From NCBI RefSeq assembly GCF_900104725.1, contig NZ_LT629758.1, positions 8,394,001-8,458,000 of the forward strand: a stretch of 64,000 bases of DNA, given 5' to 3'. The notes under the pieces are model-generated. The model was not told the origin of the DNA. It was given only the letters and a program-made list of their open reading frames with translations, and made no database searches. The DNA comes from Actinoplanes derwentensis. Its GTDB lineage: Bacteria; Actinomycetota; Actinomycetes; Mycobacteriales; Micromonosporaceae. Positions 317 through 18,309 of this stretch are shown piece by piece; position 1 is the stretch's first letter; each line of letters begins with the position of its first letter. The position numbers and the translations under genes are program-made.

Positions 317-1843
317 CTGAAACTGGAATTGCGCGGCATCACCAAGCGCTTCGGCGACCTGGTGGCCAACGATCACATCGACATCACGGTCGAGCCGGGC
401 GAGGTTCACGCCCTGCTCGGCGAGAACGGCGCCGGTAAGTCGACGCTGATGAACCAGCTCTACGGCCTGCTCCAGCCGGACGAGGGCCAGATCTTCGTCA
501 ACGACGAGCCGGTCGTCTTCAAGAGCCCCCGGGACGCCATCTCGGCCGGCATCGGCATGGTGCATCAGCACTTCATGCTGGTGCCCGTCTTCACCGTGGC
601 GGAGAACATCGCGCTCGGTGCCGAGGAGGTGCGTGGTGGCCCGCTCGGCTGGCTGGACCGCCGCCGGTCGCGCCGCGACGTGATCGACACCTCGAAGAAG
701 TACGGCCTGCCCGTTGACCCGGACGCCCTGATCGAGGACCTGCCGGTCGGCGCCCAGCAGCGCGTCGAGATCGTCAAGGCCCTGACCCGCGAGGTCGACC
801 TGCTGATCCTGGACGAGCCGACCGCGGTCCTGACCCCTCAGGAGACCGAGGAACTGCTCGCCGTCATGCGGTCGCTGACCGAGATGGGCAAGTCGATCGT
901 CTTCATCACCCACAAGCTCAAAGAGGTCAAGGCGATCGCCGACCGGATCACCGTGGTCCGTCGCGGCAAGATCGTCGGTACCGCCAGCCCGGACACCAGC
1001 GAGGACGAGCTGGCCGCCCTGATGGTCGGCCGGGCCGTCAGCCTCGAAGTGCAGAAGGGCCCGGCCGAGCCCGGCGCCGCCGTCCTGAAGATCGACGGCC
1101 TGGTGGTCGACGACGACCGTGGTGTGCGCGCCGTCGACGGCGTCGACCTGGAGGTCCGGGCCGGCGAGGTGCTCGGCATCGCGGGTGTCCAGGGCAACGG
1201 TCAGACCGAGCTGGTCGAGGCCGTGATGGGCCTGCGGACGACCCGGGCCGGCGCGGTCCGCCTGGACGGCGGCGACCTGGTCGGACTGAGCACCAAGAAG
1301 ATCCTCGGATCCGGTGTCGGTTACGTCCCCGAGGACCGCAGCCACGACGGCGTGGTCAAGGAGTTCTCGGTCGCCGAGAACCTGGTCCTCGACATGTACG
1401 ACCGGGCCCCGTTCGGCAATGCGTTCCGCGTCGACGGCGGCAAGGTGGGTGGCAACGCCAAGGAGCGGATCGAGCAGTTCGACATCCGGTGCCAGTCGCC
1501 GGACACCGCGGTCGGCACGCTCTCCGGCGGCAACCAGCAGAAGGTCGTGGTGGCCCGGGAGATGTCCCGTCCGCTGCGCCTGCTCATCGCGTCGCAGCCC
1601 ACCCGCGGGGTGGACGTCGGCTCGATCGAGTTCATCCACAGCCGGATCATTCACGAGCGGGACCAGGGCACCGCGGTGCTCGTGGTCTCCAGCGAGCTGG
1701 ACGAGGTGGTCGGCCTCGCGGACCGGATCGCGGTGATGTACCGCGGCCGGATCCTGGCCATCGTCTCGCCCGACACGCCACGCGAGGAGCTGGGTCTGCT
1801 CATGGCCGGCATCACCAGCTCGACGGCTGAGGGGGAGAAGTGA
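317..1843 (+). CDS. Nucleoside ABC transporter, double ATP-binding subunit
   Basis: Two fused ABC ATPase domains power uptake of nucleosides by the BMP-type importer. The first has Walker A GENGAGKST (about residues 35-43), a Q-loop before HQHFMLV, a degenerate signature VGAQQR and Walker B LLILDEP (about 161-167). The second has a degenerate Walker A (GVQGNGQTE), the YVPEDR motif, signature LSGGNQQ (about 401-407) and an altered Walker B in which ASQPTRGVD replaces the usual Asp-Glu; this asymmetry is normal for the RbsA/YufO-like family. I place the start at a CTG at 317, six bases after GGGAG, because homologues begin KLELRGITKRFG. A GTG at 251 in frame would add 22 residues unlike any ABC domain. 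The last four bases overlap the next gene. Confidence 0.88.
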   Translation: MKLELRGITKRFGDLVANDHIDITVEPGEVHALLGENGAGKSTLMNQLYGLLQPDEGQIFVNDEPVVFKSPRDAISAGIGMVHQHFMLVPVFTVAENIALGAEEVRGGPLGWLDRRRSRRDVIDTSKKYGLPVDPDALIEDLPVGAQQRVEIVKALTREVDLLILDEPTAVLTPQETEELLAVMRSLTEMGKSIVFITHKLKEVKAIADRITVVRRGKIVGTASPDTSEDELAALMVGRAVSLEVQKGPAEPGAAVLKIDGLVVDDDRGVRAVDGVDLEVRAGEVLGIAGVQGNGQTELVEAVMGLRTTRAGAVRLDGGDLVGLSTKKILGSGVGYVPEDRSHDGVVKEFSVAENLVLDMYDRAPFGNAFRVDGGKVGGNAKERIEQFDIRCQSPDTAVGTLSGGNQQKVVVAREMSRPLRLLIASQPTRGVDVGSIEFIHSRIIHERDQGTAVLVVSSELDEVVGLADRIAVMYRGRILAIVSPDTPREELGLLMAGITSSTAEGEK

Positions 1844-3102
1844 CCGCCGAGACCACCACCGAGGCGCCGAGGAAGCCGGAGCCGGCCGGTGACGACTCGT
1901 TCATGAACGTGTTCGTGCGCAATCTCTGGTCGGCGAACAACGTCCTGCTCACGGCGTTGTCGATCCTGCTGGCCGTGCTGATCGGCGCGGTCCTGATCGT
2001 CGTCTCCGACGCCGAGGTGCTGGCCAAGTTCGGCTACTTCACCGCCCGGCCCGGTGACGCGCTGGATGCCAGCTGGGACCTGATCAGTCTGGCCTACGCC
2101 GAGCTGCTGATGGGCGCGTTCGGCGACCCGGCCGTGTTCCAGGCCTGGTTCGCCGGGACGGCCACCTGGCAGCAGGCGTTCACACCGCTCTCCGAGACCC
2201 TGACGTACGCCGCTCCGCTGGTGTTCACCGGTCTCTCGGTGGCGCTGGCCTTCCGCGGCGGCCTGTTCAACATCGGCGCCCAGGGCCAGGCGGTGCTCGG
2301 CTGCATCGTGGCCGGTGTCGCGGGTTTCTCGTTCGGCCTGCCGATTGTGCTCAACCTGGCGGTCGCGCTGGTAGCGGGCGTCGTCGGCGGCGCGTTGTGG
2401 GGCTTCATCCCGGGTCTGCTCAAGGCGCGGACCGGAGCACACGAGGTGATCACCACGATCATGCTCAACTACACCTCGGCGCTCTTCCTGTCCTGGCTGG
2501 TCATCCAGCAGGGCGTCCAGGCACCCGGCCGCACCGACGCGATCAGCAAGTCGGTCGCCGAGTCCGCGCAGCTCCCGTCGCCCGGCGGAGTCCTCCGGGT
2601 GCACCTCGGCATCATCATTGCGGTGTTCGTGACGGCCGGGGTGGCCTGGCTGCTGAAGCGGTCCGCCTTCGGCTTCGAGATCCGCGCGGTGGGCGCCAAC
2701 CCGCACGCGGCGAAGACCGCCGGCATCAGCGTCGCCCGGACGTACGTGCTGCTGATGGCCGTGGCCGGTGGCCTGGCCGGTCTCGGTGGTGCCACTCAGG
2801 TGCTGGGCACCGCCCACTCCCTGACCCCGGCGGTGGCCGGCAACATCGGCTTCGACGGCCTGCTGGTCGCCCTGCTGGGCCGCAACCGGCCGTGGGGCAC
2901 CTTCTTCGCCGCGCTGCTGTTCGGCGCGCTGCGGGCCGGTGGCAACCGGGTCCAGTCGTTCGCCGGCATCTCGCTGGAGCTGGTCACCGTGCTCCAGGCG
3001 CTCATCGTCATCTTCATCGCCGCCCCCGCACTGGTGAAGGCGATCTTCCGACTGCGTGCCGCCCGGTCCACCGGTCTCGGCGCCTCTCTGGCGAAGGGCT
3101 GA
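1840..3102 (+). CDS. Nucleoside ABC transporter permease (first)
   Basis: A 420-residue integral membrane protein of the branched-chain/BMP-type permease family (BPD_transp_2). A soluble N-terminus of about 30 residues precedes a first membrane helix (about 31-52); the rest contains the conserved core with FRGGLFNIGAQGQ, a coupling-helix region around GAHEVITTIMLN, and AVGANPHAAKTAGI, all typical of YufP/NupP-like permeases. The GTG start overlaps the ATPase stop (GTGA), indicating translational coupling, and the next permease follows after four bases. The two permeases probably form a heterodimeric channel for nucleosides. Substrate is inferred from family and from the nucleoside-catabolic genes downstream. 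Confidence 0.87.
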   Translation: MTAETTTEAPRKPEPAGDDSFMNVFVRNLWSANNVLLTALSILLAVLIGAVLIVVSDAEVLAKFGYFTARPGDALDASWDLISLAYAELLMGAFGDPAVFQAWFAGTATWQQAFTPLSETLTYAAPLVFTGLSVALAFRGGLFNIGAQGQAVLGCIVAGVAGFSFGLPIVLNLAVALVAGVVGGALWGFIPGLLKARTGAHEVITTIMLNYTSALFLSWLVIQQGVQAPGRTDAISKSVAESAQLPSPGGVLRVHLGIIIAVFVTAGVAWLLKRSAFGFEIRAVGANPHAAKTAGISVARTYVLLMAVAGGLAGLGGATQVLGTAHSLTPAVAGNIGFDGLLVALLGRNRPWGTFFAALLFGALRAGGNRVQSFAGISLELVTVLQALIVIFIAAPALVKAIFRLRAARSTGLGASLAKG

Positions 3103-7951: not shown

Positions 7952-9037
7952 ATGGCTGGCATCACACACTCCGACATCATCAAGGCTCCGAAGGTCCTGC
8001 TGCACGACCACCTGGACGGCGGACTGCGGCCGGCCACCATCGTCGAGATGGCCGAGGTGGTCGGACACGAACTGCCCTTCACCGATCCGGAACAGCTCGG
8101 CGAGTGGTTCGTCGCGGCCGCCGACTCCGGCTCGCTGGAACGGTACCTGGAGACCTTCGCCCACACCGTGGCGGTCATGCAGACCGTCGAGGGCCTGCAC
8201 CGGGTCGCCAAGGAGTGCGCGCTCGATCTGGCCGCCGACGGTGTCGTCTACGCCGAGGTCCGCTATGCGCCCGAGCAGCACCTGGAGCGCGGTCTCACCC
8301 TGGATGAGGTGGTCGAGGCGGTGCACGCCGGGTTCCAGGAGGGCTGTGCCGAAGCGGCGGCTAAGGGCACGCCCATCCGGATCGGCACCCTGATGACCGC
8401 GATGCGGCACGCCGCCCGGTCCCAGGAGATCGCCGAGCTGGCGGTCCGGTTCCGGGACAGCGGCGTGGTCGGCTTCGACATCGCCGGCGCGGAGGCCGGG
8501 TTCCCGCCCACCCGGCACCTGGACGCCTTCGAGTACCTGCAGCGGGAGAACTTCCACTTCACCATCCACGCCGGTGAGGCGTTCGGGCTGCCGTCGATCT
8601 GGCAGGCGATCCAGTGGTGCGGCGCGGACCGGCTCGGGCACGGCGTGCGGCTGATCGACGACATCACGGTCGGAGCCGACGGGACACCGCCGGAGCTGGG
8701 CCGCCTCGCGGCGTACGTGCGGGACAAGCGGATCCCCCTCGAGCTGTGCCCGTCGTCGAACGTGCAGACCGGGGCCGCGCCGTCGGTCGCCGAGCACCCG
8801 ATCAAGCTGCTGCACGATCTCCGCTTCCGGGTCACGGTCAACACCGACAACCGACTGATGAGCGGTACGTCCATGTCGCGCGAGATGACGCTGCTCATGG
8901 AAGCGTTCGGCTGGGGATGGGCGGAGATGCAGTGGTTGACGATCAATGCGATGAAATCGGCGTTCATCCCGTACGACGAACGTCTCGTTCTGATCAATGA
9001 AGTGATCAAGCCGGCGTACGCCAAACTGCTGACCTGA
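7952..9037 (+). CDS. add: Adenosine deaminase
   Basis: Deaminates adenosine and deoxyadenosine to the inosine forms in purine salvage. The 361-residue TIM-barrel metalloenzyme shows the N-terminal zinc site HDHLDGG (His18 and His20), the substrate-gate region [16 protein letters not shown] with the third zinc His, and a C-terminal VNTDNR carrying the metal-binding Asp region. Length agrees with bacterial adenosine deaminases. It is divergent from the methyltransferase gene and lies just past the import operon with cdd and deoA, the association seen in mycobacteria (Rv3313c-Rv3315c). It has no close neighbour downstream. Confidence 0.93.
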
Positions 9038-9490
9038 AATCCGTCATGTCTGGTTATAGCCGGATCTGAACGAACGTACGTCAAAAGAAATCACCTGTCA
9101 GTCTCTGGTGCCCCGCCGTTCGGCTAGACTGCCGCCTGCAAACTCGGCATACTCTGGCGTCTCGCCTTGCCGATCGCGGGGAACCGAGTCATCGTCACTT
9201 CTATCGCGATCGACTACGATCGGGACCCGGTCGGCCTGCATCCACCCCCCAACGCTGCGCCGACCTACGAAGTGACCTTGAGATATGTGCAGCTCCACAG
9301 GTAGTGATATTGAGACCGGCGATGTCCAACTGCGAGGTTGCAACATCGCGGCACACAACCGGTCCGTGTCCGCCTGCTCTTTCTCTTTGACACTTGTCGT
9401 GATGGAATCTCGGGGGCCCGACGTCGGCGAGTCGGCCGTGTGCGGTGTCCGGTGAGCCGAAAGCCGGGCCCGAATCAGGAGGACGGTGAC
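9038..9490 (+). other. Intergenic region upstream of the cvn operon
   Basis: About 450 bases with no convincing gene; a short minus-strand frame (9098-9358) has no recognisable protein and no good start. The region is visibly less GC-rich than its surroundings around 9040-9110 and 9280-9400. It probably carries the cvn promoter. An excellent ribosome binding site AGGAGG at 9477-9482 stands eight bases before the GTG of the kinase gene. I could not assign a promoter with confidence. Confidence 0.5.
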
Positions 9491-12400
9491 GTGAGCAAGC
9501 GCCCCAGTAGCGCGAACGGCGTCATGTCGCGTCTGCGCCGACCCGCGGGTCGGCTGCGAGACCTACCGATCTGGTCCAAGCTTGGCCTGATCATGTTGGT
9601 GCCGACAGTGGCGACCATCATCGTCGGTGTCAACGGACTTGTTGACCACATCGACGAAGCCAGTAACGCGGAGCGTGCACGCACCCTCTCGGTGCTCTCC
9701 GAAGCCTCCGGTGGTCTGGTCGACCACCTACAGGCGGAGCGCACCTTTGGCGTAATCATCACGAAGACCGCGACGGACAATGCGGCGGCCTTCAAGACAG
9801 CGGTCGACCGGTACAGCAAGGAACACGGCGAGGTCGACGACGCCAAGGCGCCGTACGTCCAGCAGAAGGCCGCCCTAGAGGACGTGCCGGACAACGTGGG
9901 CGATCTGCTGCTGCGTCTGGACCGCAACCTGGAGGACCTACCCACCTTCCGCAGCCGGGTCGCCAAGGGCGATGAGGACCAGAACAACGTCCTGACCACC
10001 TACGACCAGCTGATCAACGACCTTCTCCAGGTTCGCGACATCTCGGCGCAGCTCGCCAACGACCAGACCCTGAGCGACCGGCTCCGGGTCGTGGCCGCGG
10101 TGGCCCGTGCCAAGAACTACGTCGCCGAGCAGCGCTACATCGGCCAGGACGTGGTCGCCTCCGGGCAGCTCACTAACGGCCTGCGCAAGAACTTCCTGGA
10201 GACGCAGACCGGCTACCAGCTGGCCGAGGACACCCTCGGGGCAGTCGGTAACGCCGAGGAGACGGACTACTTCAACAACACCGTCGCCGGCCCGAAGCGC
10301 CAGGCCGCGGAAAACTGGATCACCCCGCTGATGTCGCTGCAGGGCAGCAACAACTCCGCGATCCCGTTCTCCTCAGCCGAGTGGGAGCAGGACCTGTCCG
10401 GTTACAACGACCTGTTCCGGCAGGTCGAGGTCGAGTTCGACCGGAAGATCGTGGCCCAGGCCACCGAGCTGCGGAACGGCACGAACCAGGCGGTCTTCCT
10501 GGAGACGAGCCTGCTGCTCGGCATGCTGCTGCTGGCCATCCTGTTCGCCTGGTTGGTCGCCCGGTCGATGGCGCGCTCACTGCGTGAACTGCGCCAGGGT
10601 GCTCTCGCTGTCGCCCAGTTCGGCCTGCCGCACGCGGTGAGCCGGCTACGTGATCCGGCGCTCTCCGCGTCGCTCACACCGGCACAGGTCGCCGACCAGA
10701 TCGCCGAACCCCTACCGGTGCGAAGCCGGGACGAGTTCGGGCAGGTGACCGAGGCGTTCAACGCGGTCCACCTCGAGGCGGTTCGTACCGCCGCCGAGCA
10801 GGCCGCACTACGTGCCTCCGTCGCGACGATGTTCGTCAACCTGGCCCGCCGTTCGCAGATCCTGGTCGACCGGCTCATCGGTCACCTGGACCGGCTGGAG
10901 CGTGGCGAGGAGGACCCGGACCGCCTGGCCGAGCTCTTCCAGCTCGACCACCTGGCCACCCGAATGCGTCGTAACGACGAGAACCTCCTGGTTCTCGCGG
11001 GCGCCGACTCGACCCGTGTGCAGCGGGAGCCGGCCGCTCTGATCGACGTGCTCCGCGCCGCGCAGTCCGAGGTCGAGCACTACACCCGCATCGAGTTCGG
11101 CATGATCGACCGGGACATCGAGGTCGCGGCACACGCCGTTAACGACATGGTCCACCTGGTCGCCGAGCTCTTCGACAACGCGACAGCGTTCTCGCCGCCG
11201 AACTCCAACGTCATGGTCGAGGCCCGCCGCATCGGTGACAACGCCGTGCTGACGGTCGAGGACCACGGCATCGGCATCAGCCGCGAGCAGCTCCGCGACC
11301 TCAACGAGCGGCTCGCCAATCCGCCGACGGTGGACGTCGCCGTCTCCCGGATGATGGGCCTGGTCGTGGTCGCACGGCTGGCCAGCCGGCACGCGGTCCG
11401 GGTCGAGCTTCGGCCCGCCGACCGCGAGCGCGGCACCGTCGCCGAGGTGGGCCTGCCCATCACGGTGCTGGCCGCCTCCGCCAACGCCCAGGTCCAGGGA
11501 CTTCCGGGCCGGAACGCCTTCGACGGCGGACCCGGCTCCGGGATGCCCGGCTTCGGCGAGCCTCTCGCTCTGGAGAGCGGCGGCTACCACGGTTCGAACG
11601 GCAACAACGGTTCGAACGGCGGTAACGGTGGTTCGAACGGTTCGGTCCCGGCGTGGTCCGACCTCACCGGTGCGGCACCGTCCGGTTTCGGCGGCTACAA
11701 CGCCGGTACCAACGGTTTCGGCGGATCGTCCAACGGCTTCGGTGGAGGTTCCACCAACGGCTTCGGTGGATCGCCGAACGGGTTCCATGGCCCGCGCAGC
11801 AACGAGGTGATCCCGCCGTTGCCGTCCGGTCCGCAGGGCTTCGCAGGCGGCCTGGACGATCTGGCCCAGCGTCGCAACGGTGGCGACTTCCGCCCCGAAG
11901 GCGACGGCAACGGGTTCGGACCGACCATCCCGCGTCAGCTCCCGGCCAACCCGAGTTCGTTCATGCCGCCGGTCTCGGCGCCCCCGGTTCCGCCGGTCTC
12001 GGCGCCTCCGGCCCGGCCTGTGTCGGCAGCGCCCTACTCCGCTCCGCCGGCCGAACCGGTGTCGGCTCAGCCGTACTCGCCGGCCGACCGGAACCCGTTC
12101 GCCTCGGCACCGCCGGCTTGGCCGCCGGTCGCCGCGGACCGGGACTCCACCCCGCACGTGCCGGAGAACCTGGCCGCCGCGCTCGACATGACTGCCGAGA
12201 TCCCGCGGTTCCGCCCGGAGAACTACGAAGCTCAGCCGCAGGTGGCTCCGCCGATCAACCCGCAGACCATCCCGGTTCTGCCGAGTTCGGCTCTGTCGGC
12301 TGACATGCTCGACCCGGCGGAGGCTCAGGCCACTGCCGCCGCGCAGATGGCGTCGGCCCGTGAGGGCGCGGCTCCGTTCGCGGACGAGACGATGGAACTG

Positions 12401-12961
12401 CCGATCTTCCGGGAGCTGGAGTCGGCGTGGTTCGTCACGACGGCCGAGCCGGCCCGGCCCAAGGTGTCCGGTGTGGGCGAGGAATCAGTCGTCTCGCAGC
12501 GGATCCCGACCGGCGAGCCGATGCGGAGCGCTCCTGTTCCGCAACCGCAGCCGGTGGTGGTGCCGGAGGTTCGTGACTTCGATACCGCTAGTGTTGGTGC
12601 GCCGATGGCCGCTCCGGCTGCTCCGGCGGCCTACGGCAACGGGGACGCCCCTGCGGCGAACCCTTGGCGGACCGCGGCTGACGATGGCTGGCAGGCTGCC
12701 CGCCTGGCTGCTGAGACACCGATCGAGACCACCACCACTGCGGGTCTGCCGAAGCGCAAGCCGATGGCTCAGCTCGTCCCCGGCGGTGTGGAACGGGGCG
12801 GTAACTCCGTCCAGCGTCGTACGCCTGAGGGGGTTCGCGGTCTACTTTCCGCTTACCACCGTGGTGTGGCACGCGGTCGCACCAAGGAACAATCGACCAA
12901 CCTGGAGGACACTCCGGGAGGGCAGCAGCCCTCGCAGGCTGGCAAGGAGCATGAGGCATGA
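9491..12961 (+). CDS. Conservon sensor histidine kinase (CvnA-like) with nitrate/nitrite-sensing-type domain
   Basis: First gene of a cvn operon. The 1156-residue membrane kinase has a first helix at about 31-50, an extracytoplasmic helical sensor (about 51-335, NIT-like), a second helix at about 337-358, a HAMP-like linker, and an ATPase domain with N-box [12 protein letters not shown] (about 559-570), G1 VEDHGIGIS and G2 [13 protein letters not shown] phosphoacceptor His is not obvious, as in many CvnA proteins. Then comes a very long disordered tail, rich in Asn-Gly near 700-760 and in Pro-Ala later, ending in conserved short motifs [17 protein letters not shown] and [11 protein letters not shown]. 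The GTG at 9491 has a perfect AGGAGG. The frame is open upstream, but that part looks non-coding. Confidence 0.88.
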
Positions 12962-13362
12962 CATCTACGCAGGATCTGGGTTGGCTTCTGGCCAACTTCG
13001 CCGATCGCGTTCCCGGGGTCGCGCATGCGATCGCGGTCTCCGCCGACGGGCTGCTCCTGGCGTCGTCGCGAGACCTCCCGCGTGACCGCGCCGACCAGTT
13101 GGCGGCCATCGCGTCCGGCCTGGTAAGCCTGACGCAGGGCGCCGCGCGTTGCTTCGAGGGTGGCGCCGTCCTTCAGACGGTCGTCGAGATGGACAATGGT
13201 TTCCTGTTCCTGATGTCCATCTCCGACGGTTCCTCCTTCGCGGTCCTGGCCGCTCGGAGCTGCGATGTCGGTCAGGTCGGCTACGAGATGGCCCTCCTGG
13301 TCGACCGTGTCGGCGAAGCTTTGACCCCCGCGCCGCGCTCGGCGGCCGGGGTACTGGGCTGA
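12958..13362 (+). CDS. Roadblock/LC7 domain protein (CvnB-like)
   Basis: A 134-residue Roadblock/LC7 protein, second gene of the cvn operon. The fold is seen in [31 protein letters not shown] followed by a helix and the [18 protein letters not shown] strands. Roadblock proteins of conservons are thought to act as GTPase-activating or regulatory partners of the CvnD GTPase and to bind the membrane-associated complex. The ATG overlaps the kinase stop (ATGA), so translation is coupled. Size and position match CvnB of Streptomyces conservons. Confidence 0.92.
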
Positions 13363-13487
13363 ACCGGTAGTGGGCCGGCACCATCCAGGGGTTTGTCAGG
13401 GGTTTTACGACCCCGGTAGGCTCAGCCGGCTACTGGTAGAAACTTTGATAACCAATACACTTCGAGGGGCCGAGGGAGGGGTTGACG

Positions 13488-13871
13488 GTGACGATGCCTG
13501 AACGCGATGAGCCGACTGGTGCGCTGGTCAGGCCGTACGCCATGACCCGCGGTCGGACCCGGCCGAAGCTTGAGATAGCGCTGGAAGCGCTGGTCGAGAC
13601 AACCGTGCGCGGCCGTTCCGGAATGGGGCGCGGGCAGGGTGGAAGCGAGCATCAGTACATCGCGGCGATGTGCGACAACGGCCGGGTTCAGTCTCTGGCC
13701 GAAATCGCTGCACGCATGCAACTGCCGCTCGGTGTGGCACGTGTGATCGTTGCGGACATGGCCTCTGACGGCCTGGTCGCTGTGTACGAGCCCACCTCGC
13801 TCGAAGACGAGACTGACGCGGTAGGCACGGATCTGCTGGAAAGGGTGCTGAGTGGACTTCGCAGGCTCTGA
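13488..13871 (+). CDS. DUF742 protein (CvnC-like)
   Basis: A 127-residue DUF742 protein, third gene of the cvn operon. The family motif is visible as LVRPYAMTRGRTRP near the N-terminus, followed by a winged-helix-like region with SLAEIAARMQLPLGVARVIVADMASDGLV. The start is chosen at GTG 13488, six bases after the strong GGGAGGGG; a TTG at 13482 would sit too close to it. A gap of about 125 bases separates it from the roadblock gene, wider than usual in conservons. Its last 20 bases overlap the GTPase gene. Confidence 0.88.
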   Translation: MTMPERDEPTGALVRPYAMTRGRTRPKLEIALEALVETTVRGRSGMGRGQGGSEHQYIAAMCDNGRVQSLAEIAARMQLPLGVARVIVADMASDGLVAVYEPTSLEDETDAVGTDLLERVLSGLRRL

Positions 13872-14460
13872 CATGTCGCACCGTCCCGCTGCGGGACGCG
13901 TGACATCGGCGAAGATTGTCATCGCCGGTGGCTTCGGCGTCGGTAAGACGACGCTGGTGGGGTCGGTCTCGGAGATCACCCCACTGACCACTGAGGCGAT
14001 CATGACCTCGGCCGGTGTGGGTGTCGACGACAACCGGCAGGTGCCGGGCAAGACGACCACTACCGTGGCCATGGACTTCGGCCGTATCAGCATCGACCGG
14101 GACCTGATCCTGTACCTCTTCGGTACTCCGGGTCAGACACGTTTCTGGTTCATGTGGGACGAGCTGGTCCGGGGCGCCATCGGTGCGGTCGTCATGGTGG
14201 ATACGCGTCGGCTCGCCGACTGCTTCGCCGCCATCGACTTCTTCGAGCACCGGAGGCTGCCGTACCTGGTGGCCATAAACTGCTTCGACGGGATGCAGTA
14301 CCACAACGCGCAGGACGTTCGGGACGCTCTGGCGATCTCGAGCGACGTGCCCGTGGTGAGCTGTGACGCGCGTAACCGCGAGTCGACGAAGAACGTCCTC
14401 ATCTCGCTTGTCGAGTATGTGCTGACGATGCGTCGCACTCGCGCTACCGCGCCTGCCTGA
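13852..14460 (+). CDS. Small GTP-binding protein (CvnD-like)
   Basis: A 202-residue Ras-like GTPase closing the cvn operon. It has the P-loop GGFGVGKTT, a switch I Thr region (TTTVAMDFG), the switch II motif FGTPGQTRFWFMWDEL, and VAINCFDG where other GTPases have NKxD; this substitution is usual in the CvnD/MglA-like group. It should act as the molecular switch of the complex containing kinase, roadblock and DUF742 proteins at the membrane. It overlaps the DUF742 gene by 20 bases, and a strong terminator follows 47 bases after the stop, showing that the operon ends here. Confidence 0.92.
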   Translation: MDFAGSDMSHRPAAGRVTSAKIVIAGGFGVGKTTLVGSVSEITPLTTEAIMTSAGVGVDDNRQVPGKTTTTVAMDFGRISIDRDLILYLFGTPGQTRFWFMWDELVRGAIGAVVMVDTRRLADCFAAIDFFEHRRLPYLVAINCFDGMQYHNAQDVRDALAISSDVPVVSCDARNRESTKNVLISLVEYVLTMRRTRATAPA

Positions 14461-14507
14461 GCAGACTCCGCGACACTCGAGGTCGGGCCCGCACCCGCCT
14501 GACCTAG

Positions 14508-14557
14508 AGCCCCGCTTCGACGGCCTGGTTAACCCCACCGGCCGAAGCGGGGCTTTT
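14508..14557 (+). terminator. Intrinsic terminator of the cvn operon
   Basis: Twelve-base arms AGCCCCGCTTCG (14508-14519) and CGAAGCGGGGCT (14543-14554) pair perfectly, and a T4 run follows (14554-14557). The position right after the GTPase gene fits termination of the cvn transcript. Confidence 0.9.
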
Positions 14558-14880
14558 GCGCGCTTTCCGGCCATTCGTCATCGTATACGAGTGATCACCC
14601 GTTGTCATCGCGAGGTCCGGGAAGCCGGATCAATCCGTATTGCCGGCGCAGTCGCTGAGAGCTCCCAGGCGGAGATTTCGACTCCCGGGGATGTGGGATT
14701 AGCGATGGCCTCCGGTCGGGGCGTGTGGAGCCGCTCAGCCCCCGCGCGGCCGATGAAAAGCGGGAGCCGCTCAGCGACCGCATGACGGAAGGCGATCAAG
14801 CATCATTCAGCGGCCGTGCGGCGGGTGGCGATCGGGCCCCTACCTCAACGCCCGCGTGCCGGATGGCGATCGCATGCCAG
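14558..14880. other. Intergenic stretch between convergent units
   Basis: About 320 bases without a supportable gene. It contains several scattered GGCGATC words and a repeated GGAGCCGCTCAG (14727 and 14764), but no long repeat or hairpin. Short frames here have no start signal and no familiar protein. It may be degraded sequence between the cvn operon and the convergent minus-strand gene. Confidence 0.4.
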
Positions 14881-14917
14881 CAACAAAGAAGACCGCGCCC
14901 CACACGGGTCGCGGTCT
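14881..14917 (-). terminator. Intrinsic terminator of the IS110-like/cvn-tail gene
   Basis: On the minus strand AGACCGCG (14910-14917 read in reverse) pairs with CGCGGTCT (14890-14897) around a loop with additional GGG/CCC pairing, and a T-rich segment (reverse complement of CAACAAAGAA) follows. It lies 19 bases past the end of the minus-strand gene. Confidence 0.78.
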
Positions 14918-14935
14918 CCTTGTCGGTCGGGTCGG

Positions 14936-17290
14936 TCAGCGGTTGCCGGCGTTGTTGCTGCGGAACTCGTCGGCGGGCTGGCCGTCGCGGCTGAAGTCCC
15001 AGCCGCCGGCGGCCTCCCGGCCCGGGCGCCCGCCCATGGCGAAGCCGCCGATCTCCTGCCCACGCCGCCAGCCACGGAAGTAGCCGGTGGTGTGCGCCGC
15101 GATGGAGGCGGCGTCGCGGACTATCCGCACCGGCCGTTCCTCGGTGCGGGACGAGCCGGGGACCAGGTTGGCCTGGGGCACACGTTTCGGCAGACCGGCG
15201 TTCGTCTCCGCGGCGACGGCCGGGGTAGCGGCCTTCTGCGCGGCACGCCAGGCGGAGTCGTTCGGGTTGGACCAGTTGACGTCGGTGTCCTCGGTGGTGC
15301 CGGTGAACCACGCGGAGCGGGCGGCGGCGAAGATCAGCAGGTCACCGTCGTTGCCGTCGGCCGAGACCGGCGGGGCGCTGCTCCGGTCCAGTGCGGTGAT
15401 CCGGGTCGAGCGCTCGTCGTCCCGGCGGGCCGGCGGGGAGCCGCCGAGCTGGTCGAGCCCGGGAAGCCGGGCCCGGCCGCCGTTGCTGCGGGGCTGGTCG
15501 GCGAGACGGCGCTCCAGCGGCGAGGGCTCCTGCGGCATGTCCTGCCACGGCGGCTTGATCCGGCTGTCCGGAGCGGGGCTGACCGATGCCGCCGGAGACT
15601 GCCGGGACGGCAGATCGGAGCCGGACTTCAGACCCGACCGGGTGGGCAGCGACGGCGCCGAGGACCGGGTGGGCAGCGACGGCGTCGAGGATCGGGACGG
15701 CAGCGGTGGTGCCGTGGCTCCCCGGGTGGGCAGCGACGGTGCCGACGGGCGGGACGGCAGATCGGGCCGGGCGGCCTCGTCCTTGTCGCCGTTGAGTAGC
15801 GGCCAGTTGGCCCGCGACCCGGGCTCCGGGGACTCCAGCGGCGTCCGCGGAGACTCCAGCGGCGTCCGCGGGGTCTGCAACGGGAGGCTGAAGTCGGTGG
15901 CGCCGTTGGTGGCTGCCGCGGGCGGCCGGGCGCTCGTCGGTGGGCGCGGCGGGATGACCGTGCGCCGCTCGGACCGGGCCCGGTTGAGCTCGGCGTTGGT
16001 CAGGGTCGGGCGGAACGGCTCGCCGGCGTCGGCCGGGCTGCTCACACCGGGCGGCGGCACCGAAGTCGGGGTGGAGGGGTTGCGGGTCGCCGGGGCCGGG
16101 CGGGTGCCGGGCGTGATCGGCGTCATGCCGGGCGGGGGCGGCGGCACCGACACCGGCCGGTTCAACGGTCCGGTGGCGCGGCCGGGCAGCCCGTTAGCGG
16201 CGGCCGGGGCGACCGGCGGGGCCATCAGCGGGTCCGGAGCGGACGGCATGGTGGTCATCGCCTGCGGCATGGCCGGGCCGCTGCCGGTGGAGACCGGCTC
16301 GGGACGGTTGCGGCGGCCGAACCGGGCGACGTCGCCGGTGCCACTGCTCGGCACCGGCTGGAGCGCGGGCGGCTCGGAGACACGGCGTGCGCTGCGACGG
16401 CCGACGTTCGGCCCACCGATGCCGGGCGGGGTGGCCCGGGCGGCGAGAGTGCCGATCAGGGCGGAACAGGCGGCGTCGCAGGCGCGGACCGCGGAGATGG
16501 CCTTGCGGACCGCCTCGGCGGCGGCCGGTGACAGGGACTTGTTGACCCCGCCCCGGCGCGGCGACTCGCTGACCGCGACCTGCAGAGCGGTGATCGCGCT
16601 GGTCAGCTCGCTCTCGCTGCCGGAACCGGCGCGGACCAGATCGGCGGCGATCTCGCGGGCCGCCGGGGCAGGACCGGCGAGACGGCCCGGCTCGGGCATC
16701 GCGTCGAGAACGGCGAGGGCGGTCGGGTGGGACGGGTCCGGGAACGCCCGGAGCGCCGCCGGATAGAGCTCGCGCAGGACCTCGCGCAGGGCGACGGAAG
16801 CGGCGTTCCGGCCGACCAGCATGGCCACGTGGGCCGCCAGGACCGGCTTGTAACTGACCAGCTCGCGCGGTGCCGGCAAGGTCACCGCCGCGATCGCGCC
16901 GGCCTGCAGCGCCCGGGCCAGGCCCACGGCCCGCCGGGCGGCTGCCGGCGCGGAGATCTCCTCGGGGGAGTCGTCGTCGGAGAAGCGCTCGGCGTAGTCG
17001 TCGGCCGCGTCGTCGTCGACTACCACCAGTGGCCGGCCGGCCGCGGTGAGCAGTGACGTGACGACGTGGTCGTCGCTGTCCGCGGCGACCGCCGCGTCGC
17101 TGAAACCGGTCGTCCGCTCCACGAGCAGCGTCCCCAGCTGGGCGTAGCCAGTCGGTTCGTCGCTGATCTCGTGGACACCGAGCAGCCGGCCTGCGTCATC
17201 CACCACGGCGACGGTCAGCGGAGCGGCCGAGGCCGAACGCACCGAATCATCAGCCGACGCCAGACCGCAGTACACGCGCACGAGCGCCAC
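14936..17290 (-). CDS. IS110 transposase-like N-terminal domain fused to disordered region and conservon-kinase C-terminal tail
   Basis: A 784-residue protein. Residues 1-215 resemble the DEDD N-terminal domain of IS110-family transposases: a beta-hairpin start (TVAVVDDAGRLLGVH), DEPTGYAQL, AARRAVGLARALQAG and especially LRELYPAALRAFPDP plus ALAVLDAMPEP (171-201). The catalytic acidic residues expected in IS110 (Asp after the first strand, Glu after the second, the SDxxDA motif) are not evident, and no C-terminal IS110 Ser-containing domain follows. Instead there is a 400-residue Pro/Ser/Arg-rich segment and a tail with SAWF, AGLPKRVP, NLVPG and GYFRGWRRG, the same short motifs that end the cvn kinase at 9491-12961. 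GTG 17290 has GGAGGAG eight bases upstream. Probably a domesticated regulatory or scaffold protein; function unknown. Confidence 0.6.
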   Translation of the reverse strand: MALVRVYCGLASADDSVRSASAAPLTVAVVDDAGRLLGVHEISDEPTGYAQLGTLLVERTTGFSDAAVAADSDDHVVTSLLTAAGRPLVVVDDDAADDYAERFSDDDSPEEISAPAAARRAVGLARALQAGAIAAVTLPAPRELVSYKPVLAAHVAMLVGRNAASVALREVLRELYPAALRAFPDPSHPTALAVLDAMPEPGRLAGPAPAAREIAADLVRAGSGSESELTSAITALQVAVSESPRRGGVNKSLSPAAAEAVRKAISAVRACDAACSALIGTLAARATPPGIGGPNVGRRSARRVSEPPALQPVPSSGTGDVARFGRRNRPEPVSTGSGPAMPQAMTTMPSAPDPLMAPPVAPAAANGLPGRATGPLNRPVSVPPPPPGMTPITPGTRPAPATRNPSTPTSVPPPGVSSPADAGEPFRPTLTNAELNRARSERRTVIPPRPPTSARPPAAATNGATDFSLPLQTPRTPLESPRTPLESPEPGSRANWPLLNGDKDEAARPDLPSRPSAPSLPTRGATAPPLPSRSSTPSLPTRSSAPSLPTRSGLKSGSDLPSRQSPAASVSPAPDSRIKPPWQDMPQEPSPLERRLADQPRSNGGRARLPGLDQLGGSPPARRDDERSTRITALDRSSAPPVSADGNDGDLLIFAAARSAWFTGTTEDTDVNWSNPNDSAWRAAQKAATPAVAAETNAGLPKRVPQANLVPGSSRTEERPVRIVRDAASIAAHTTGYFRGWRRGQEIGGFAMGGRPGREAAGGWDFSRDGQPADEFRSNNAGNR

Positions 17291-17357
17291 GTCGTCGTCT
17301 CCTCCCCGCCAAGTGCTTCTCTTCTACGACCAGGGATTGATGTTCCCTGGTAATCGG

Positions 17358-18215
17358 TCAGTCACGCCAGTCCACAGCGGCGGAGATCTTTCCGATCACC
17401 GAACGCCAGCCGAGACTCGCCTGCTGTGCGCCGATCTTCTTCAACCGGCGGCGGCCGAAGAATCCACCCATCCCGCCCTTCTCGGCGGTCCGGAGGGAGT
17501 CGTCGAGGTCGTCCAGCGGCGAACCGGGCGACAGTGCCAGGATCACCGGCTTGATGCGGAGTCCGAAACCGAGGTCGCGGGCCACTTCACCGGCGTTGAT
17601 GAGCAGCGGCAGGTCCCACGTGTCATGACCGCCACGCAGGTTTTCCACCACGAGGTCGAGCTCGTAGCGGTCCTCCGGCAGGGGGTCGATGTCGCTCGAC
17701 TGTACCCGCTCCACCAGGTCGGCCCAGGTGTCCAATTGTGCGAGATCGTGCGGAGCACCCGAACGAAGGAAGGAGACCAGTGCCTCTGAGCTCTTGAAAG
17801 CGATCAGTCGGCCCTTGTGACTGAGGAACATGGGTACTTCCTCGTCATCCGCCTGGGCGGCGGGCTCATCCTCGAAGTCGGCCGAGTCAGGCTCCTCGGT
17901 GGAACCCTCCTTGCCGTCCACGGGCTCGCCGTCGGCGATGAGAGCCTCGTACTCCTCGTCGACGATGACCTCTTCCTCCTCGGCGCGCTTGCGGCGGGCC
18001 TCGAAGGGGTCGTCCTCGTCGACCACGACCTCGGTCGGGGTGAGCTCGGATGCCTTCCGGTACGCCCGGAGGGTCAGACCCACCCCGCCCGGCAGGGCGA
18101 TCTCGACCGGCTCGACTCGGGCTTGCTCCCAGAGCTCCCGCCCGGAAGACCCCTCGGGCGAGGACTTCTCCGCCACCGGCGCGGACGCCTCGGGCTCGTC
18201 GGACTGGCTGGTCAC
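17358..18215 (-). CDS. Acidic protein of unknown function
   Basis: A 285-residue protein I cannot assign. The N-terminal half is disordered and strongly acidic, preceded by a segment RVEPVEIALPGGVGLTLRAYR. The C-terminal half looks globular: PMFLSHKGRLIAFKSSEALVSF, then DLVERVQSSDIDPLPEDRYELDLVVENLRGG, and ends with GWRSVIGKISAAVDWRD. A short basic stretch FGRRRLKKIG lies near the C-terminus. There is no signal peptide. The start at GTG 18215 follows GGAGG by seven bases; an upstream start would add a proline run. It is the first gene of a possible two-gene unit with the IS110-like protein gene 67 bases downstream. Confidence 0.7.
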   Translation of the reverse strand: MTSQSDEPEASAPVAEKSSPEGSSGRELWEQARVEPVEIALPGGVGLTLRAYRKASELTPTEVVVDEDDPFEARRKRAEEEEVIVDEEYEALIADGEPVDGKEGSTEEPDSADFEDEPAAQADDEEVPMFLSHKGRLIAFKSSEALVSFLRSGAPHDLAQLDTWADLVERVQSSDIDPLPEDRYELDLVVENLRGGHDTWDLPLLINAGEVARDLGFGLRIKPVILALSPGSPLDDLDDSLRTAEKGGMGGFFGRRRLKKIGAQQASLGWRSVIGKISAAVDWRD

Positions 18216-18309
18216 GGTGACCTCCGGGTGATCTGGGGGTGGTGGGACGGGTGACTCTGGGCACACACCCTAGTCGGCAACGCTGTGTGACAGCCGCCCC
18301 GGTAGCCCC

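Follow-up and report, generated by a model that had tools for sequence, protein, structure and literature searches.

A gene for a protein of 784 amino acids (aa) lies tail-to-tail with a conservon in a stretch of 64,000 nucleotides from the one-contig genome of Actinoplanes derwentensis (G000:C1:8394001-8458000), which is called the window in the following. Conservons are actinobacterial G protein systems which control development and specialised metabolism. Residues 1-290 of the 784-aa protein represent an IS110-type RuvC domain together with its coiled coil, in which the catalytic residues have been lost, while the last ~136 residues are a homologue of the C-terminal extension of the conservon kinase CvnA, and the gene has been retained next to the conservon. 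We consider it rather probable that a domesticated, catalytically dead IS110 fragment has been reused here as a kinase-free counterpart of CvnA, which would dock a roadblock protein by its tail. The gene and the parts of its product are located in the window as follows.

14936..17290 (-), whole gene of the 784-aa transposase-derived protein, GTG start
16871..17290 (-), residues 1-140, IS110-type RNase H/RuvC-like domain, catalytically dead
16421..16870 (-), residues 141-290, IS110-type helical region (coiled-coil / Nop-like), probably for dimerisation
15347..16420 (-), residues 291-648, linker rich in Pro, Ser and Arg, predicted to be disordered, net charge +14
14936..15346 (-), residues 649-784 and stop codon, tail, homologue of the extension at the C-terminus of conservon kinases
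15305..15346 (-), tail box 1, GDLLIFAAARSAWF
15155..15274 (-), tail box 2, W...ND.AWRAA to T.AGLPKRVPQANLVPG
15182..15193 (-), LPxR motif within the tail, LPKR at residues 700-703, a published conservon-kinase signature (PMC4316618)
15047..15127 (-), tail box 3, RIVRDAASIAAHTTGYFRGWRRGQEIG

The GTG start of this open reading frame is common to its relatives, and a GGAGGAG-type ribosome-binding site is found just 5' of it at 17299-17305. With the 784-aa protein as query neither Pfam nor NCBIfam returned a match at E<=10, be it to the NIT, HAMP and HATPase_c domains or to any other entry, a P450 or GAF domain was likewise not found in the Pfam scan, and a search of the PDB sequences yielded no match at E<=1. 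Across 120 relatives listed, the database entries carry, wherever a name is given, only the names transposase or hypothetical protein.

The relation to IS110 is seen by profile, by structure and by alignment. Although only three out of 50 aligned family sequences reach the IS110 N-terminal profile of Pfam at E<=1 (best 0.0061), a profile-profile comparison assigned residues 5-291 to IS110 with a probability of 99.5, the match stopping just short of PF02371. A profile built only from the N-terminal halves of the family recognised all of 19 full-length IS110 transposases with 40-94 bits, while the best of the shuffled controls, 711 of 760 of which received a score, reached 7.3 bits. Seventeen of these 19 transposases had been chosen via their likeness to the family, but two IS110 copies of the same Actinoplanes genome, found independently through PF01548, scored 42.5 and 40.4 bits as well. 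In structure comparison IS621 and ISCro4 rank first: with residues 1-290 alone Foldseek returned four matches at E<=0.001, every one of them IS621 or ISCro4, and with the full-length model none below E 0.001 (best 1.3e-3). The first-pass annotation of this DNA had seen IS110 likeness in residues 1-215; the likeness is real, but it reaches to about residue 290.

IS621 requires the residues D11, E60, D102, D105 and S241 (PMC11208158). In a joint alignment of 41 family members (the window protein and 40 further loci) with the 19 IS110 transposases, all four residues of the DEDD set are kept in each of the 19. In the family the aspartate at position 1 is lost in 41 out of 41 members, being replaced by A, T, V or S, and position 2 is occupied by D in 36, E in two, Q in two and S in one. 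At positions 3 and 4, whose placing is uncertain in the most diverged members, D is kept in three and two of the 41 proteins, respectively. The window protein itself shows A11, D71, A117 and R120 at these positions and has lost three of the four acids. The second IS110 domain (PF02371, Tnp, with the catalytic serine) was found neither in the window protein (E<=10) nor in the 50 aligned family sequences (E<=1). The 784-aa protein is CATALYTICALLY dead, and the earlier impressions that catalytic acidic residues are not apparent and that the second IS110 domain is missing are both supported.

The tail shares three boxes with CvnA. A tail profile was built from 39 sequences taken solely from the family of the 784-aa protein, leaving out locus L083, where both the gene and cvnA are broken across frames, and locus L076, which was missed by the motif pattern. 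When this profile was run on the regions behind the kinase domain of 37 CvnA proteins, 36 scored between 51.4 and 77.6 bits, the single unscored tail being that of the frame-broken cvnA of L083. In total 1001 controls (925 shuffled, 37 reversed and 39 linker sequences) gave at best 7.8 bits, which rules out the low-complexity coincidence that the first-pass annotation had named as the case against its own suggestion. With the tail as single query against the Actinoplanes genome, the CvnA of the window (E 9.5e-7, 34% identity) and the CvnA of a second conservon (E 2.9e-8, 36%) were found, and the nine remaining matches besides the protein itself all have E>=0.1. The two tails end about 2 kb apart, as had been noted (12961 to 14936). 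Of the motifs then said to be common to both proteins, however, only SAWF is exact among those compared; the NLVPG region reads QLVPG in CvnA and YFRGWRRG is replaced by YHRGVARG, so that the homology stands but not the identity of all motifs.

L700, P701 and R703 are invariant across 50 aligned sequences, and the tail has 15 invariant columns, 12 of which are not part of LPxR. LPxR characterises a conserved C-terminal extension of conservon kinases (PMC4316618). In the class the tail was matched in 110 of 246 genomes, mostly in kinase-sized frames among the rows listed, and therefore a tail private to the locus in the window can be rejected.

Other conservon kinases of the same genome (L114, L117, L120) end in degenerate tails just before their own roadblock gene, as judged partly by eye; this suggests that the tails form a graded family and perhaps encode specificity.

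Within the bacterial family 147 of 150 genomes contain a match to the N-terminal half, and within the class 53 of 394 do so. Matches from outside the family resemble IS110s: among 27 such class-level loci (L047-L073), frames of 400-470 aa are present in 17, all of which were aligned and three of which were scanned with Pfam, and of the ten others nine contain PF01548 or PF02371, with nothing found in L064. Among 40 loci from 40 genomes and 35 genera, including L076 which was picked as a paralogue, the convergent order cvnD-C-B-A, tail-to-tail with the transposase-derived gene, is present in 36, and together with the window the N-terminal half and the tail share one frame in 40 out of 41. In a larger set of 80 named loci, some of them from the same genomes, there are 74 in which cvnD faces the gene, the other six being cut by contig ends, and both parts are in one frame in 78. 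Two comparisons by NG86 gave ratios of nonsynonymous to synonymous substitution rates (dN/dS) that were highest in the linker (0.44 and 0.50), lower in the N-terminal half (0.20 and 0.26) and lowest in the tail (0.13 and 0.16); the gene is under purifying selection. The near-universal conservation in the bacterial family, the fixed gene order and the purifying selection argue for domestication, and these same data bear out the earlier proposal of a domesticated transposase domain tied to a conservon. If the gene was inherited vertically, it would predate the split of Glycomyces from the rest.

A few loci depart from this pattern. L083 (G031) is the only one of the 40 in which the transposase-derived gene and cvnA are both split across frames; these breaks are probably sequencing errors of the assembly, or else the copies are broken. 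L076 carries at 9019-10521 (+) a diverged paralogue with a frame of 501 aa and 41% identity to the N-terminal half of the window protein, and the same genome has a standard copy. Weaker second matches in two other genomes (G055:C133:11318-12058 and G075:C127:16258-16650, frames of 506 and 466 aa), each of which also has a standard copy, could be either a paralogue or an IS110. In another bacterial family, L066 contains at 1133-2053 (+) a frame of 307 aa combining a short IS110-like stretch with a phospholipase D-like domain, which is either a frame artefact or another fusion.

In 13 of the 40 loci (L079, L080, L086, L090, L091, L093, L098, L099, L101 and L105-L108) a roadblock gene is directly next to the transposase-derived gene on the same strand, its roadblock domain beginning 19-149 nucleotides past the stop codon. 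Stop and start codons overlap or touch in seven of nine junctions read (ATGA, GTGA, TGATG, TAAGTG or TAGGTG), just like cvnA and cvnB in the window, whose frames overlap by four bases. Robl_LC7 was found in all eight of these dedicated roadblock proteins that were scanned. In a midpoint-rooted FastTree phylogeny the 13 proteins form one clade (support 0.999), which contains no CvnB of a conservon and none of the other eight roadblock proteins found in the Actinoplanes genome. The pair of gene and roadblock gene occurs mostly, but not solely, in diverged lineages, as the N-terminal identity to the window protein is 28-45% in 12 of the 13 paired loci and 55% in L080. In none of the 13 loci was a cvnC or cvnD found on the strand of the pair. 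In L098, L099 and L107 the pair stands alone, with no conservon within ~10 kb, and a CvnA-sized tail protein is encoded elsewhere in all three genomes. The dedicated roadblock proteins of these three loci may correspond to the orphan actinobacterial MglB clade (PMC4316618).

A class-wide search with the tail gives a similar picture. Among its 30 best-scoring loci, one per genome, three belong to the family of the 784-aa protein and 27 do not, and in all 27 non-family loci the next gene on that strand, 24-254 nucleotides away, is a roadblock gene; 17 of their tail reading frames were recognised as CvnA by a kinase profile, the other ten being too cut or too diverged. The 13 pairs and these 27 loci together make the roadblock protein the most constant companion of the tail. 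That the dedicated roadblock gene directly follows in 13 out of 40 loci supports, indirectly, a docking of the tail to roadblock proteins, which the first-pass annotation had named among the possible partners.

In the Actinoplanes genome one further protein, with a DUF4388 domain (L118 360-1962 (+), near G000:C1:6142384), ends in ...RRKPGAKLPKE... directly before a roadblock gene. Its likeness to the tail was seen by eye only, and the tail profile does not recognise it; it could possibly be a second kinase-free partner.

Several observations weigh against this reading. Downstream of the gene no same-strand roadblock gene was found in the window, nor in the two other family loci among the 30 best. 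Since cvnC and cvnD follow cvnB in true conservons, the 27 non-family loci alone cannot single out the roadblock protein among possible tail companions, and it is because of the 13 pairs only that it is singled out. The idea that the tail converged on CvnB once the dedicated roadblock gene had been lost had to be rejected, as there is no signal: the median number of residues identical to the CvnA tail is 30 versus 29.5 (n=26 and 10). The paralogue of L076 has the tail, but no conservon, roadblock gene or 302-aa neighbour (see below) was found within ~10 kb. AlphaFold models the tail with low confidence (pLDDT mostly below 60) and as short helices only. In favour of the reading, the distances of the N-terminal halves correlate strongly with those of CvnB, CvnC and CvnD combined (Mantel r 0.907, 0/2000 permutations, n=37), but vertical inheritance alone would also give a high r.

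How such a protein could have arisen and might work can be outlined as follows. Judging from the structure of the pair, an IS110 element was most likely fused into a duplicated cvnA-cvnB unit, in which case the dead RuvC domain and coiled coil would have replaced the sensor and kinase domains of the CvnA copy. The N-terminal half would dimerise via its coiled coil and bind some ligand or protein, and the product would be a soluble dimeric scaffold with two long flexible arms carrying the tails, each of which may dock a roadblock dimer. Where its gene is kept, the dedicated roadblock protein would be the partner of the tail. In Actinoplanes none of the nine roadblock genes found belongs to the dedicated clade, and here the tail most likely docks the CvnB encoded by the convergent conservon; CvnB would then be shared or contested with CvnA, which could let the 784-aa protein tune the GTP cycle of CvnD. 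In a wider form, which we put forward as possible but doubtful, an RNA-guided recombinase would have been dismantled within a conservon: the sensor-kinase part of a duplicated cvnA would have given way to an IS110 element, of which the dead RuvC-Nop half stayed behind, joined to the docking tail and to a dedicated roadblock gene. The result would be a receptor that lacks a kinase, possibly senses RNA or a ligand and serves a bacterial Ras-like G protein system, so that conservon tails would act as swappable sockets for new input domains.

An alternative keeps the tail but gives it another target. The arginine of LPxR could act as an arginine finger or clamp for the GTPase CvnD, supplied in trans from the 784-aa protein as well as from CvnA. 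R703 of LPKR is indeed invariant in the 50 aligned sequences, and the Group 2 MglA/MglB proteins lack a conserved arginine finger, hence the LPxR arginine of CvnA is notable (PMC4316618). The same paper is itself cautious on this idea, however, most invariant tail columns (12 of 15) are located outside the motif, and on the strand of the pair neither a GTPase nor a DUF742 gene was found in the 13 paired loci, three of which have no conservon within ~10 kb. We regard an action on the GTPase as unlikely. It is still less likely that the protein forms an output arm, in which the dead IS110 half has kept the ability to bind nucleic acid, a structured RNA or DNA, which would be brought to the conservon G protein by the tail, so that the product would be a nucleic-acid-directed effector or an RNA-sensing input. 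The N-terminal half is acidic, with a median net charge of -14 (range -20 to -1, n=41), whereas the IS110 relatives have +2 (-7 to 10, n=19), which counts against nucleic-acid binding.

An ordinary or decaying IS110 transposase that lies near a conservon by chance, or a tail that is a low-complexity coincidence, would agree with the public records, which name many family members transposase. The N-terminal half, however, is single copy in the Actinoplanes genome (search at E<=1) and all but three of the 150 family genomes contain a match to it, the synteny is fixed, the first catalytic residue is lost in 41 out of 41 proteins, dN/dS is well below 1, and none of the 1001 tail controls exceeds 7.8 bits. 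An active or decaying transposase was rejected on the grounds of the single copy, the distribution, the dead site and the purifying selection, and we assign a negligible probability to this explanation. A role in anti-phage defence was rejected too, as PADLOC gave no match at E<=1 for the 784-aa protein and its 302-aa upstream neighbour. The kinase-free CvnA counterpart remains the reading we prefer.

The conservon and the upstream neighbour occupy the following positions in the window.

9338..12961 (+), conservon kinase CvnA with NIT, HAMP and HATPase_c (Pfam), start approximate
12647..12889 (+), boxes 2-3 of the CvnA tail, with homology to the tail of the 784-aa protein
12958..13362 (+), CvnB, roadblock/LC7 protein (Pfam)
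13482..13871 (+), CvnC, DUF742 (Pfam)
13852..14460 (+), CvnD, Ras-like GTPase (Pfam ATP_bind_1)
17358..18266 (-), 302-aa conserved neighbour, weakly SatS-like, 67 bp upstream of the transposase-derived gene on the same strand

For another conservon, CvnA9 has been reported to interact with CvnB9 and CvnC9, each of which was also reported to interact with CvnD9 (PMC8510531). The 302-aa neighbour has a homologue upstream of the gene in 38 of the 40 loci, the exceptions being L091, which is cut by the stretch fetched, and the paralogue L076, and the two genes may be co-transcribed. It has no Pfam match and resembles SatS, an export chaperone of mycobacteria, only weakly, its 32 bits being far under the cut-off of 700. 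Behind cvnD, at 14508-14554, a strong inverted repeat followed by TTTT was seen by eye. This repeat would separate the two convergent operons; it is not on the list of the terminator scan, probably owing to its long loop.

The C-terminal extension of CvnA with its LPxR motif is already described (PMC4316618), and the naming as transposase is already present in public databases, where this label on many entries of the family is misleading. Among the open-licence PMC papers listed, considered by titles and the beginnings of abstracts, we found no report of an IS110-family recombinase domesticated into signalling, which this protein would represent. In evolution the CvnA extension was transferred to a catalytically dead recombinase unrelated to it, and in 13 of 40 loci a roadblock gene has been kept alongside. 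The transplanted tail separates the link between tail and roadblock protein from the kinase and thereby makes this link directly testable.

Compared with the IS110 recombinases (IS621, ISCro4; PF01548 and PF02371) the 784-aa protein has the same RuvC-like fold and coiled coil, with homology over residues 5-291. It differs from them by the missing DEDD residues and by a Tnp domain with catalytic serine that could not be found, as well as by its single copy, fixed synteny, acidic N-terminal half and the fused linker and kinase-type tail. The RuvC-like domains of SPT6/Tex superpose on residues 4-133, and the Nop-type coiled coil of Nop5/Nop56/Prp31 superposes on residues 139-289. The Nop proteins of box C/D particles have been termed 'dead RuvC-like' (PMC12045711); unlike in these, the C-terminal RNA-binding Nop part is not seen in the 784-aa protein, and the partners differ.

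CvnE (P450) and CvnF (GAF) are likewise extra proteins encoded at conservons and likely modulate them, and they overwhelmingly accompany CvnA proteins without the sensory NIT domain (PMC13343842). The 784-aa protein contains an unrelated domain, and the CvnA of the window does have a sensory NIT domain. From CvnA, finally, the 784-aa protein differs by its IS110-derived N-terminal part, in place of which no NIT, HAMP or HATPase_c domain was found, but it carries the same three-box tail with the LPxR motif, and in 13 of 40 family loci, though not in the window, a roadblock gene follows directly.
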